NCBI GenBank assembly: GCA_944381325.1
Contig: CALWKS010000003.1
Coordinates: forward strand, 1-64,000
Direction of reading: 5' to 3'
From: an uncultured Christensenellaceae bacterium
GTDB lineage: Bacteria; Bacillota; Clostridia; Christensenellales; UBA3700
DNA: 64,000 nucleotides
In this document: in pieces, positions 16,228 to 62,568 of the stretch
Numbering within the stretch: the stretch's first letter is position 1
How the letters are laid out: every line of letters starts with the position of its first letter
Made by a program: the position numbers and the translations under genes
The notes under the pieces: generated by a model
What the model was told of the DNA's origin: nothing
The model's database searches: none
The model's input: the letters and a program-made list of their open reading frames with translations, nothing else

Positions 16228-16698
16228 TTATTCTTTTATTATACCCCGATCAACCAGATGGTCGTGAAGAAGCCCTGTGCTGTCCACTACGAATTTAGCG
16301 CAAGGACGCACCTTGTAATACTCGTCGTCTCTCACCTGAGGTACGTAACCTTTTGTAAGATTTTTAACGTTTTTCAGAAGTTCTCTGCAAATATCCGTTC
16401 CGTTGATCGCCTTGAATTTTTCGTCAAGTTCAGATATCTCTTTATAAACATCTGTCTTATCGGCTGCAATCGTATCGCACTTGTCGTGCAAAAGGCCGCA
16501 TACAAAGCCGTACGAGCTGACTGCTCCGCACAGATTTCTCGTTCTTCCGAAACCAGCGCCGAATCCGAGAGTAACCTTTTCAAGAATTTCTTTATCCAGC
16601 GGGAGCACATCTGAAAAAGCCAGAACGACTGACTGACAACAGTTGTAACCCTTTTTAAAATTCTCGTAAGCAAGTTGTTTTCTCTCGTCTTTAGTCAT
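16228..16698 (-). CDS. C_GCAxxG_C_C family redox protein
   Basis: 156 residues with the family's cysteine pattern: NCCQSV near residue 20, GRTRNLCGAVSSYGFVCGLL in the middle (the C-GA-x-x-G-x-x-C block) and KVRPCAKFV near the end. These small proteins probably bind an Fe-S cluster or undergo redox change and are common in anaerobes; the reaction is not known. Its ATG overlaps the pflA stop by 4 nt (ATGA), so it is translated by coupling with pflA, which hints at a role in maturation or electron supply for the glycyl-radical system. Confidence 0.85.
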   Translation of the reverse strand: MTKDERKQLAYENFKKGYNCCQSVVLAFSDVLPLDKEILEKVTLGFGAGFGRTRNLCGAVSSYGFVCGLLHDKCDTIAADKTDVYKEISELDEKFKAINGTDICRELLKNVKNLTKGYVPQVRDDEYYKVRPCAKFVVDSTGLLHDHLVDRGIIKE

Positions 16699-17429
16699 TT
16701 TATAAGCTCCTTTGAATCAAGATATGCCTGCAACTCGTCAAGTCTTTTTCTTTCAAGCGCGGGCGTGCCTTTAAGCGGATTGTTTATTCCCAGCTTTTCG
16801 TATTTTGAAAATCCCATGGTATGAAAAGCGAGAAGCTGATATCTCTTTACGCATTTATAGCCCCTCACTATCTCGGCGTATTTGTCGATATATTCTTCCT
16901 TATCGTTTATTCCCGGCACTATAACTGTTCTTATCCACACGGGCACGCGTTTTTCTTCACAGTAATTCAATGTGTCGAGGACAGGTGAAATGCTTCCGCC
17001 GCAATATCTTTTATAGTTCTCATCGTCCCAGAATTTCAAATCGAGAATAACGGCTTCAGCGCCGCGGAGCGCCGCCTTCACGTCTTCCGTCAGAGGCACA
17101 CCCCCCGACGTATCCAGCACAACTCCTATGCCGTCTTTTTTCAGTCTTTTTTCAAATGCCGCTACGAACGCACTCTGAACAAGCACTTCTCCGCCGCTTA
17201 TGGTAACGCCGCCGTCCTTGCCGAAATACGGCTTATAGCGCACGACTTTTTTTGCAAGCTCTTCAACTGTATAGCGCTGCCCTTCTCCGCTCCACGTGTC
17301 GGGATTGTGGCAATAAACGCATCTGAACGGACAACCGACGAAAAATATCCCGTATCTTATGCCTTTGCCGTCAAGCGTGGCTAAGCTTTCAAAAGAATGG
17401 ATATTCGCCGTCGGTTGCGATTTAATCAT
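16695..17429 (-). CDS. pflA: Pyruvate formate-lyase activating enzyme
   Basis: 244 residues, radical-SAM protein with the CxxxCxxC cluster motif (Cys33, Cys37, Cys40; GCPFRCVYCHNPDTW), then GGVTISGGEVLVQ, the SAM-binding GGE region. It installs the glycyl radical on PflB by generating a 5'-deoxyadenosyl radical. Length is normal for PflA without extra ferredoxin domains. It lies 21 bp downstream of pflB in the same transcript and overlaps the next gene by 4 nt. Confidence 0.95.
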   Translation of the reverse strand: MIKSQPTANIHSFESLATLDGKGIRYGIFFVGCPFRCVYCHNPDTWSGEGQRYTVEELAKKVVRYKPYFGKDGGVTISGGEVLVQSAFVAAFEKRLKKDGIGVVLDTSGGVPLTEDVKAALRGAEAVILDLKFWDDENYKRYCGGSISPVLDTLNYCEEKRVPVWIRTVIVPGINDKEEYIDKYAEIVRGYKCVKRYQLLAFHTMGFSKYEKLGINNPLKGTPALERKRLDELQAYLDSKELIK

Positions 17430-19676: not shown

Positions 19677-19688
19677 AAATACTCCTTT

Positions 19689-19718
19689 GTCCCTTGAAAA
19701 TAAAAATACCGCCGGGAC
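19689..19718 (-). promoter_or_regulatory. Possible expression platform hairpin before pflB
   Basis: GTCCC (19718-19714) and GGGAC (19693-19689) can pair so that the 3' arm ends directly before the AGGAG of pflB. There is no T run, so a translational switch is more likely than a terminator. The pairing is short and the assignment is inference. Confidence 0.4.
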
Positions 19719-19732
19719 GATTTTGTTGATTT

Positions 19733-19804
19733 TTGCCCAGACGGTCGACATAAACCGCTGTGCTCCACCATAGTAAACTATGTATATCCGTCAGTCGCAC
19801 AGCT
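19733..19804 (-). ncRNA. ZTP riboswitch (pfl motif) in the pflB leader
   Basis: Read 5' to 3' on the minus strand: P1 is GCTGTGC (19803-19797) pairing with GCACAGC (19763-19757). Inside it are the conserved GACTGACGG (19796-19788), P2 as CATAGT/ACTATG (19782-19769) and GTGGAGC on the 3' side. After a short linker comes TCGACCGTCTGGGCA, the 3' domain of the class. GACGG of the first part can pair with CCGTC of the 3' domain, the diagnostic pseudoknot, and GTC/GGC forms P3. Compared with the usual GGCG/CGCC, both strands of the pseudoknot have changed together. The class senses ZTP/ZMP and was first found upstream of pfl genes; its usual effect is to raise expression when folate one-carbon units are short. 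Confidence 0.9.
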
Positions 19805-19825
19805 ACCTCTTTATATTGCACTGTC

Positions 19826-19854
19826 ATTGTATCATAGGCAAAATTAAAAAGCAA
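19826..19854 (-). promoter_or_regulatory. Promoter of the pfl operon
   Basis: TTGCTT (19854-19849), 17-bp spacer, TACAAT (19831-19826). The start point near 19819 gives a leader of about 140 nt that contains the whole riboswitch. Confidence 0.75.
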
Positions 19855-19859
19855 CATTT

Positions 19860-20182
19860 TGTATATGCTAATTTCAGGAAAAACAAGATATTGTGTTTTT
19901 TCTTTTCTTCGCAAGAAGCTGCCGATATTATTATGTTTAAATCCGACCTTTTTCCGATGAAATACCGCAATTTTTTATAATTTGGAAATTATATTTTTAA
20001 ATATGTGCAATTTATGCTTATTCAGTTATGTTTTTAAGAATGAGTCCGCATTTGCAAGTCTTTGCTCAAAAAAAACAACTGATACACACAAGCGTATTAA
20101 TTGCAATTATACTTTTATGCGCATAATTATCCGTCAAAATCTTCCCTTCCTCTTACAACGGATTTGTTCTCTGAAAAAGCAT
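19860..20182. other. Intergenic region without recognisable gene
   Basis: About 320 bases of AT-rich sequence between the pfl promoter and the hup terminator. Open frames here are low-complexity and Cys/Phe/Ser-rich, lack ribosome sites and resemble no family. I see no RNA gene or repeat. Confidence 0.6.
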
Positions 20183-20216
20183 AAAAAAAGGAGAGCTTTC
20201 GCTCTCCGATTTTTTA
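20183..20216. terminator. Bidirectional terminator after hup
   Basis: Stem GGAGAGC/GCTCTCC with loop TTTC, seven A residues on the left and six T residues on the right. It ends the arg-hup transcript on the minus strand and could also stop plus-strand reads. Confidence 0.88.
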
Positions 20217-61638: not shown

Positions 61639-62325
61639 ATGGTAATCGCAGGACTTCAGAAAACAACGCTTTTAGACTACCCGGGCAAGGTAGCCTGCAC
61701 CATATTCACGGCTGGATGCAACTTTAGCTGCCCTTTCTGCCAGAACTGGGAAATCATAACAGGAAAAGGCGAAGACATCTCGAAAGACAGCATTCTCGGC
61801 TTTCTTAAAAAACGCAAAGGCATTCTCGACGGAGTATGCGTTACAGGAGGAGAACCTCTCGTAAACGCCGATATAGAAGAATTCTTATCTGCCATTAAGG
61901 ACCTCGGGTATTCAGTAAAACTCGATACCAACGGCTCTTTCCCCGAAAAGCTTATTTCTCTTGCTCAAAAAAAACTTATCGATACGGTAGCTATGGACGT
62001 AAAGAACAGCCCTTCGCGCTATGCCGAAACCGCAGGCTCAGATACAGACATAAGCAAAATCGACGAAAGTATAAAGTTCCTGCTTTCGGACGCCGTGGAT
62101 TACGAACTGCGCACAACCGTAGTTGACGAACTTCACGACGAATCCTCCATGCTTGAACTTGCCGGGTGGATAAAAGGCGCTAAGCGGTATTACCTGCAGA
62201 ATTTCAAGGACAGTGAAAACGTCAGATTCGGAAATCTATCGCCCTGCTCTGACGAAAAACTCATCCGTTTTACTGAAATTATGCGCCCGTTTGTTCCGTC
62301 CGTAAAAATACGTGGCGAGAACTGA
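61639..62325 (+). CDS. nrdG: Anaerobic ribonucleotide reductase activating protein
   Basis: 228 residues, radical-SAM enzyme with Cys27, Cys31 and Cys34 (GCNFSCPFCQNW), preceded by the LQKTTLLDYPGKVACTIFTAG start typical of the longer NrdG type of Clostridia; CVTGGEPL is the SAM site. It generates the glycyl radical of NrdD. GGGAGG lies before the ATG, with a TATAAT near 61610 but only a weak -35. It stands upstream of nrdD, the reverse of the common nrdD-nrdG order, and is separated from it by a terminator. Confidence 0.88.
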   Translation: MVIAGLQKTTLLDYPGKVACTIFTAGCNFSCPFCQNWEIITGKGEDISKDSILGFLKKRKGILDGVCVTGGEPLVNADIEEFLSAIKDLGYSVKLDTNGSFPEKLISLAQKKLIDTVAMDVKNSPSRYAETAGSDTDISKIDESIKFLLSDAVDYELRTTVVDELHDESSMLELAGWIKGAKRYYLQNFKDSENVRFGNLSPCSDEKLIRFTEIMRPFVPSVKIRGEN

Positions 62326-62497: not shown

Positions 62498-62568
62498 CCA
62501 CAATATATTGTATTCGGCCAAAAATATTGCAACAATATATTGACACACAACAACCGCAATGGTATAAT
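62498..62568 (+). promoter_or_regulatory. nrdD promoter with two NrdR boxes
   Basis: Box 1 CCACAATATATTGTAT (62498-62513) and box 2 CAACAATATATTGACA (62530-62545) match the NrdR consensus (ACACwATATATwGTGT type). Their centres are 32 bp apart, three helical turns, the spacing usual for NrdR. A perfect promoter TTGACA (62540-62545), 17-bp spacer, TATAAT (62563-62568) follows, and box 2 overlaps the -35. This predicts repression of nrdD by NrdR-dATP. Confidence 0.9.

Follow-up and report, generated by a model that had tools for sequence, protein, structure and literature searches.

The pflB leader examined here raises the question of which signals reach pyruvate formate-lyase in this bacterium, and whether they act on transcription or on translation. 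The gene lies in a 64-kb stretch of DNA, analysed at its full length of 64,000 nt and called the window below, and a sequence-only reading of it had proposed a ZTP riboswitch in the leader at 19733–19804. This was borne out by the covariance-model search which that reading had called for: the leader gave a full-length match (model positions 1–86, E = 1e-5) to the ZMP-ZTP family RF01750, and the proposed span covers all but a few bases of this element (Table 1). It is the sole gathering-level Rfam match found by cmscan within the window and a single copy in the whole genome of 1,985,578 bp; its 3′ end lies ∼50 nt before the pflB ATG, upstream of pflB-pflA. P1, P2, P3 and the J1/2-L3 pseudoknot are all present, and the score, the pairing architecture with its covariation, the one-carbon gene pflB downstream and a terminator platform place the element in this family, from which we infer that it would bind ZMP/ZTP. 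The pseudoknot GACGG/CCGTC had been taken as a departure from the usual strands; the strands exist and their pairs co-vary, but ACGG/CCGT is the common form in pfl leaders. Among 47 pfl-associated aptamers, of which 7 could not be read cleanly by a simple pattern, it occurred in 31, next to GCGG/CCGC (3), GTGG/CCAC (3), ACGA/TCGT (2) and GCGT/ACGC (1). The riboswitch was present in all 13 genomes of the window's genus and in 47 of 80 related pfl loci, and the proposed tie of formate production to a folate/purine alarm holds, with the riboswitch before pflB and with fhs and purH encoded in the genome. ZTP control of pfl is textbook knowledge, and the motif is named after pfl. The link of the pfl RNA motif to pfl, fhs and purH, and its competition with a terminator, were predicted from the outset (PMC2864571), and the riboswitch in the window is a typical representative of its class at a site where such switches are known.

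Table 1. Positions of the features at the pflBA locus, with the NrdR boxes of the window's nrdD for reference
Feature	Position in window	Strand	Basis or remark
pflA-like radical SAM activase	16695–17429	−	TIGR02493, 228.2 bits, slightly below cut-off 231.75
pflB, pyruvate formate-lyase, 741 aa	17451–19676	−	PF02901 + PF01228, TIGR01255
Shine-Dalgarno AAAGGAG of pflB	19682–19688	−	sequence
Intrinsic terminator overlapping P3 and pseudoknot strand	19697–19745	−	RNA fold, kept in genus
Terminator U tract	19697–19707	−	
Terminator 3′ arm	19708–19718	−	
Terminator 5′ arm	19735–19745	−	
ZTP/ZMP riboswitch aptamer (RF01750)	19728–19808	−	cmscan 52.7 bits versus gathering 39
Pseudoknot strand CCGTC in P3 loop, also within terminator 5′ arm	19740–19744	−	
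Pseudoknot strand GACGG in J1/2	19788–19792	−	covariance-model match and sequence
Predicted pflB promoter: −35 TTGCTT (19849–19854), 17 bp, −10 TACAAT (19826–19831)	19826–19854	−	sequence
Candidate NrdR box B, ATACAAAATGTTGCTT, degenerate, overlaps −35	19849–19864	−	32 bp from box A
Candidate NrdR box A, ACACAATATCTTGTTT	19881–19896	−	2 mismatches to ACACWATATATWGTGT
Reference NrdR box pair of window's nrdD: 62498–62513 and 62530–62545	62498–62545	.	offset 32

No PFL-like gene occurs in the genome besides the one served by this leader, and the product of this gene scored 1167.9 bits against TIGR01255 (cut-off 994.2). The predicted pflB promoter is conserved in the genus, as judged from the leader alignment, and was not picked up by a strict sigma-70 scan. 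Two further elements border the unit. A gene of the C_GCAxxG_C_C family (putative redox; window 16228–16698) shares a few bases with the end of pflA and appears to be co-transcribed with pflBA. A strong stem of terminator type, flanked on either side by T-runs (window 20190–20207), separates the HU gene from the pfl promoter region and would shield pflB from transcription of HU.

NrdR has been described as a repressor of ribonucleotide reductase genes. When the 13 leaders of the genus were aligned, a conserved palindrome was found upstream of the pflB promoter which matches the NrdR box ACACWATATATWGTGT. Box A lies at an alignable position in the genus and scored 12.2 bits with a matrix trained on nrdD promoters, a score equalled by 2 of 1000 shuffles; box B has about five mismatches to the consensus in the window's genome. 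Together the candidate boxes span 19849–19896, flanking and overlapping the predicted −35 element, and the pair scored 19.2 with the published consensus. Box A is a 16-bp palindrome, and the offset of 32 leaves a 16-bp spacer, which is among the allowed lengths of 14–17 or 24–27 bp; NrdR binds well at a spacer of 14–17 bp (PMC12051234). Moreover, the genome encodes NrdR (C1:266180-266617; TIGR00244, 190 bits) and carries the same boxes at its nrd genes; the nrdD promoter in the window has the same layout as that of pflB, the second box overlapping TTGACA.

We then consider how specific such pairs are. When all 1.99 Mb of the genome were scanned with the published consensus, only four pairs were returned at offsets of 31–33, all of them at 32, namely those at the window's nrdD, at the second nrdD, at pflB and at C3:326218 beside tRNA-Arg; the pflB pair is the weakest of the four, and 20 Markov-simulated genomes contained no pair scoring 19 or more. 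The strongest pair of the genome is the one beside the tRNA (CCACAATATGTTGTGA / CCACTATATATTGTGG, offset 32; L042:2719-2766, that is G000:C3:326218-326265), with a partial tRNA-Arg-like sequence on one side and an intact tRNA-Arg(CCT) on the other, and no nrd gene adjoins it. With a matrix built from the nrdD promoters of the genus only, a box was found in 13/13 pfl promoters of the genus, its score being equalled by 0–2 of 1000 shuffles, and a partner box at 32–33 bp was seen in 10 of these 13; the three other members have a strong box A whose 32-bp partner is unrecognisable.

At the level of the family, the pair could be followed upstream of pfl in three of six genera, in some cases together with the riboswitch and in others on its own. 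It was present in 6/6 genomes tested of genus g2 and 15/15 of g5, and in none of those tested of g3 (2), g4 (3) and g6 (4). In g5 genomes which have the riboswitch the boxes lie about 210 bp upstream of pfl, and in g5 genomes which lack it they lie about 77–100 bp upstream; therefore the operator is more constant than the riboswitch, and its position moves with the promoter. Across species genomes, a pair with a score of at least 14 was seen at 25 of 78 related pfl genes; 20 of these come from outside the window's genus (20 of ∼72 more distant relatives), and the riboswitch is also present in 16 of these 25 loci and absent in 9. Within 539 kb of pfl loci, 31 of the 34 pairs with such a score lie within 450 bp upstream of pfl (binomial 2e-33), where the comparative rows are related by descent, so that neither the counts nor this value come from independent events. 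An offset of 32 is the most frequent (13 loci), followed by 31 (8) and 34 (7), and most others occur 1–5 times. An artefact of neighbouring nrd genes was rejected, since nrdD is divergent beside pfl in only 1 of 80 loci (L079). In a phylum-wide draw of 56 pfl genes no pair was found (0/56), the best score being 11.0. That the leader holds a plain ZTP riboswitch only, with the upstream palindromes arising by chance or serving another factor, is unlikely: although the pairing of ZTP with pfl has already been described (PMC2864571, PMC7337938), AT-rich intergenic DNA may resemble AT-rich palindromes and the match of box B is weak, this explanation has to face the rarity of pairs in the genome and in its simulated counterparts, an offset of 32 conserved across genera despite differing positions and leaders, and the clean negative of the phylum-wide draw.

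Binding of the boxes by some other regulator with a similar palindrome, for example one of redox or fermentation that also acts at the nrd genes, appears very improbable, because the boxes fit the published NrdR consensus and have its unusual spacer of 16 bp, both nrdD genes carry the same boxes and NrdR is encoded, even if the assignment to NrdR is drawn from sequence and a strong pair is also found beside a tRNA gene. Hence we favour NrdR as the factor at these boxes, and it is likely that in this clade of gut Clostridia pfl belongs to the NrdR regulon, formate supply being co-regulated with class III ribonucleotide reductase by a dATP-sensing repressor; in many members the ZTP riboswitch would add a folate-derived input, giving direct feedback from both formate-using biosynthetic pathways.

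Which of the two nrdD genes would use this formate can be judged from their motifs. The sequence-only reading had pointed to the nrdD within the window (62613 onward, running off the window) as a formate user, which is doubtful: this gene matches PRK08270 and has an MCCR motif and a C-terminal glutaredoxin-like domain, and the MGC type lies outside the window. SCCR/MCCR enzymes have been assigned to a subclass that uses a protein reductant instead of formate, as shown for its Neisseria member (PMC4493059), and the nrdD in the window is probably not formate-driven. The second nrdD, 34 kb further on (C3:98381-100696), has an MGC finger loop and best matches the solved E. coli/T4-like enzymes, and it is plausible that this one is the formate user. 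An nrdG accompanies the second nrdD (C3:98.0–100.7 kb), and a gene for a NrdG2-type activase (TIGR02495, 214 bits; window 61639–62322) immediately precedes the NrdR boxes and the nrdD of the window. Among relatives, an MGC-type NrdD was found in nearly all genomes with an NrdR pair at pfl, and only the MCCR type was seen in g3 and most g6 genomes, which have no operator at pfl. A strict coupling of the two was rejected, as it is broken by g4 (formate-type NrdD, no pair at pfl), by one g6 genome (G041; MGC-type NrdD, no pair at pfl) and by G012 (NrdR pair at pfl, only the MCCR type seen). The correlation, though imperfect, is in keeping with the idea that NrdR may act on pfl to serve the formate-type NrdD.

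The leader itself was expected from the earlier reading to form no terminator and to act on translation, and neither expectation stood. An intrinsic terminator consisting of a 10-bp hairpin (ACCGUC-U-GGGC/GUCC-C-GGCGGU) and then AUUUUUAUUUU was found, in which ACCGUCUGGGC, which includes the loop strand CCGUC and the 3′ arm of P3, pairs with GUCCCGGCGGU. This segment alone folds at −13.8 kcal/mol (z about −2.3 against shuffles), and the hairpin is also seen when the whole leader is folded; the isolated whole leader folds no better than its shuffles. A simple terminator scan missed it because of a loop limit of 8 nt. The terminator is conserved in the window's genus, and in one subgroup its 3′ arm is changed to GCCGAGGCGGU with pairing to the fixed aptamer strand retained. 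In 42 of 47 related pfl leaders either the P3 3′ arm or the pseudoknot strand forms part of a terminator, by a criterion that accepts the P3 arm and replaced a stricter one (22/48). Because the terminator overlaps P3 and the pseudoknot strand, the riboswitch should be a transcriptional ON switch and not a translational one; in the Thermosinus ZMP switch the pseudoknot was shown experimentally to be the antiterminator (PMC7337938). Translational control through masking or exposure of the ribosome site is the least probable of the alternatives, for although three related leaders (L107, L116, L140) have no terminator and other types may exist, the U-tract terminator is placed over P3 and the pseudoknot strand here and across the genus, and the Shine-Dalgarno sequence lies outside both the aptamer and the terminator stem.

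Taken together, two-level control of pflBA, by a putative NrdR operator at the promoter and by the ZTP aptamer and terminator in the leader, appears highly probable; NrdR binding and repression are predicted from sequence, the genome-wide scan and comparative data, and the aptamer and terminator are shown by the covariance model and folding. With ample deoxynucleotides, dATP-loaded NrdR would sit on both boxes and block initiation at pflB and the two nrdD genes alike, repression of initiation at pflB arising from the proximal box, which covers the −35 element, and a drop in dATP would release pflB and nrdD together. When 10-formyl-THF is short, PurH would stall and Z nucleotides would rise, and these would stabilise the pseudoknot, block the terminator and so allow read-through into pflB. 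The formate made by PFL would then pass through Fhs into 10-formyl-THF and on to PurH, and would also supply the formate-type class III ribonucleotide reductase. NrdR, through dATP, would thus gate initiation and ZTP would gate elongation, and as formate feeds both Fhs/PurH and the formate-type NrdD, the two inputs would report on two formate-consuming pathways.

Other leaders in relatives were also inspected. The g2 pfl leaders (L317, L323, L329, L330, L337, L346, L071, L072) are about 190 nt long and gave no Rfam match even at E = 1, by which a degenerate ZTP or other known riboswitch was rejected; immediately ahead of a TATAAT-like element they carry a conserved palindrome resembling GTTGCAATTGCAAC, perhaps a second promoter with another operator. 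A similar TGCAAATGCAAC palindrome occurs further upstream of pfl, beyond the NrdR box, in a subgroup of the window's genus (L010, L013). In g6 a second type of ZTP riboswitch in the family precedes a purE-like gene (L016, L018, L025), and NrdR boxes are absent from the promoters tested. Near one ZTP-pfl leader a purine riboswitch lies on the opposite strand (L284:392-495) and apparently serves a divergent gene.

If the proposed model is true, the NrdR regulon reaches as far as the enzyme supplying the reductant for the formate-type NrdD, with an operator conserved independently of the riboswitch; central fermentation would then offer a concrete example of feedback by dATP, and the model predicts the NrdDs for which formate is the reductant in vivo. 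Searches with NrdR together with pfl names, formate or glycyl radical did not turn up a described link between NrdR and pfl; as RegPrecise and Rodionov & Gelfand 2005 were outside their scope, an earlier prediction is possible.

Compared with known systems, the candidate operator resembles those of nrd operons such as Listeria monocytogenes nrdDG, with two 16-bp palindromic boxes, a 16-bp spacer and overlap of the RNA polymerase site (PMC12051234), and differs from them in that the target is pyruvate formate-lyase and not ribonucleotide reductase and that box B is degenerate. A transcription factor likewise controls pflBA in Shewanella, where the regulator is PdhR and the signal is pyruvate (PMC5343134). 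The leader shares with the ZTP switches of Thermosinus carboxydivorans and Clostridium beijerinckii the aptamer architecture, the pseudoknot, a terminator competing with P3 and the pseudoknot, and the association with pfl (PMC2864571, PMC7337938), whereas the long 16-nt terminator loop and the putative NrdR operator at the promoter set the present locus apart from both.
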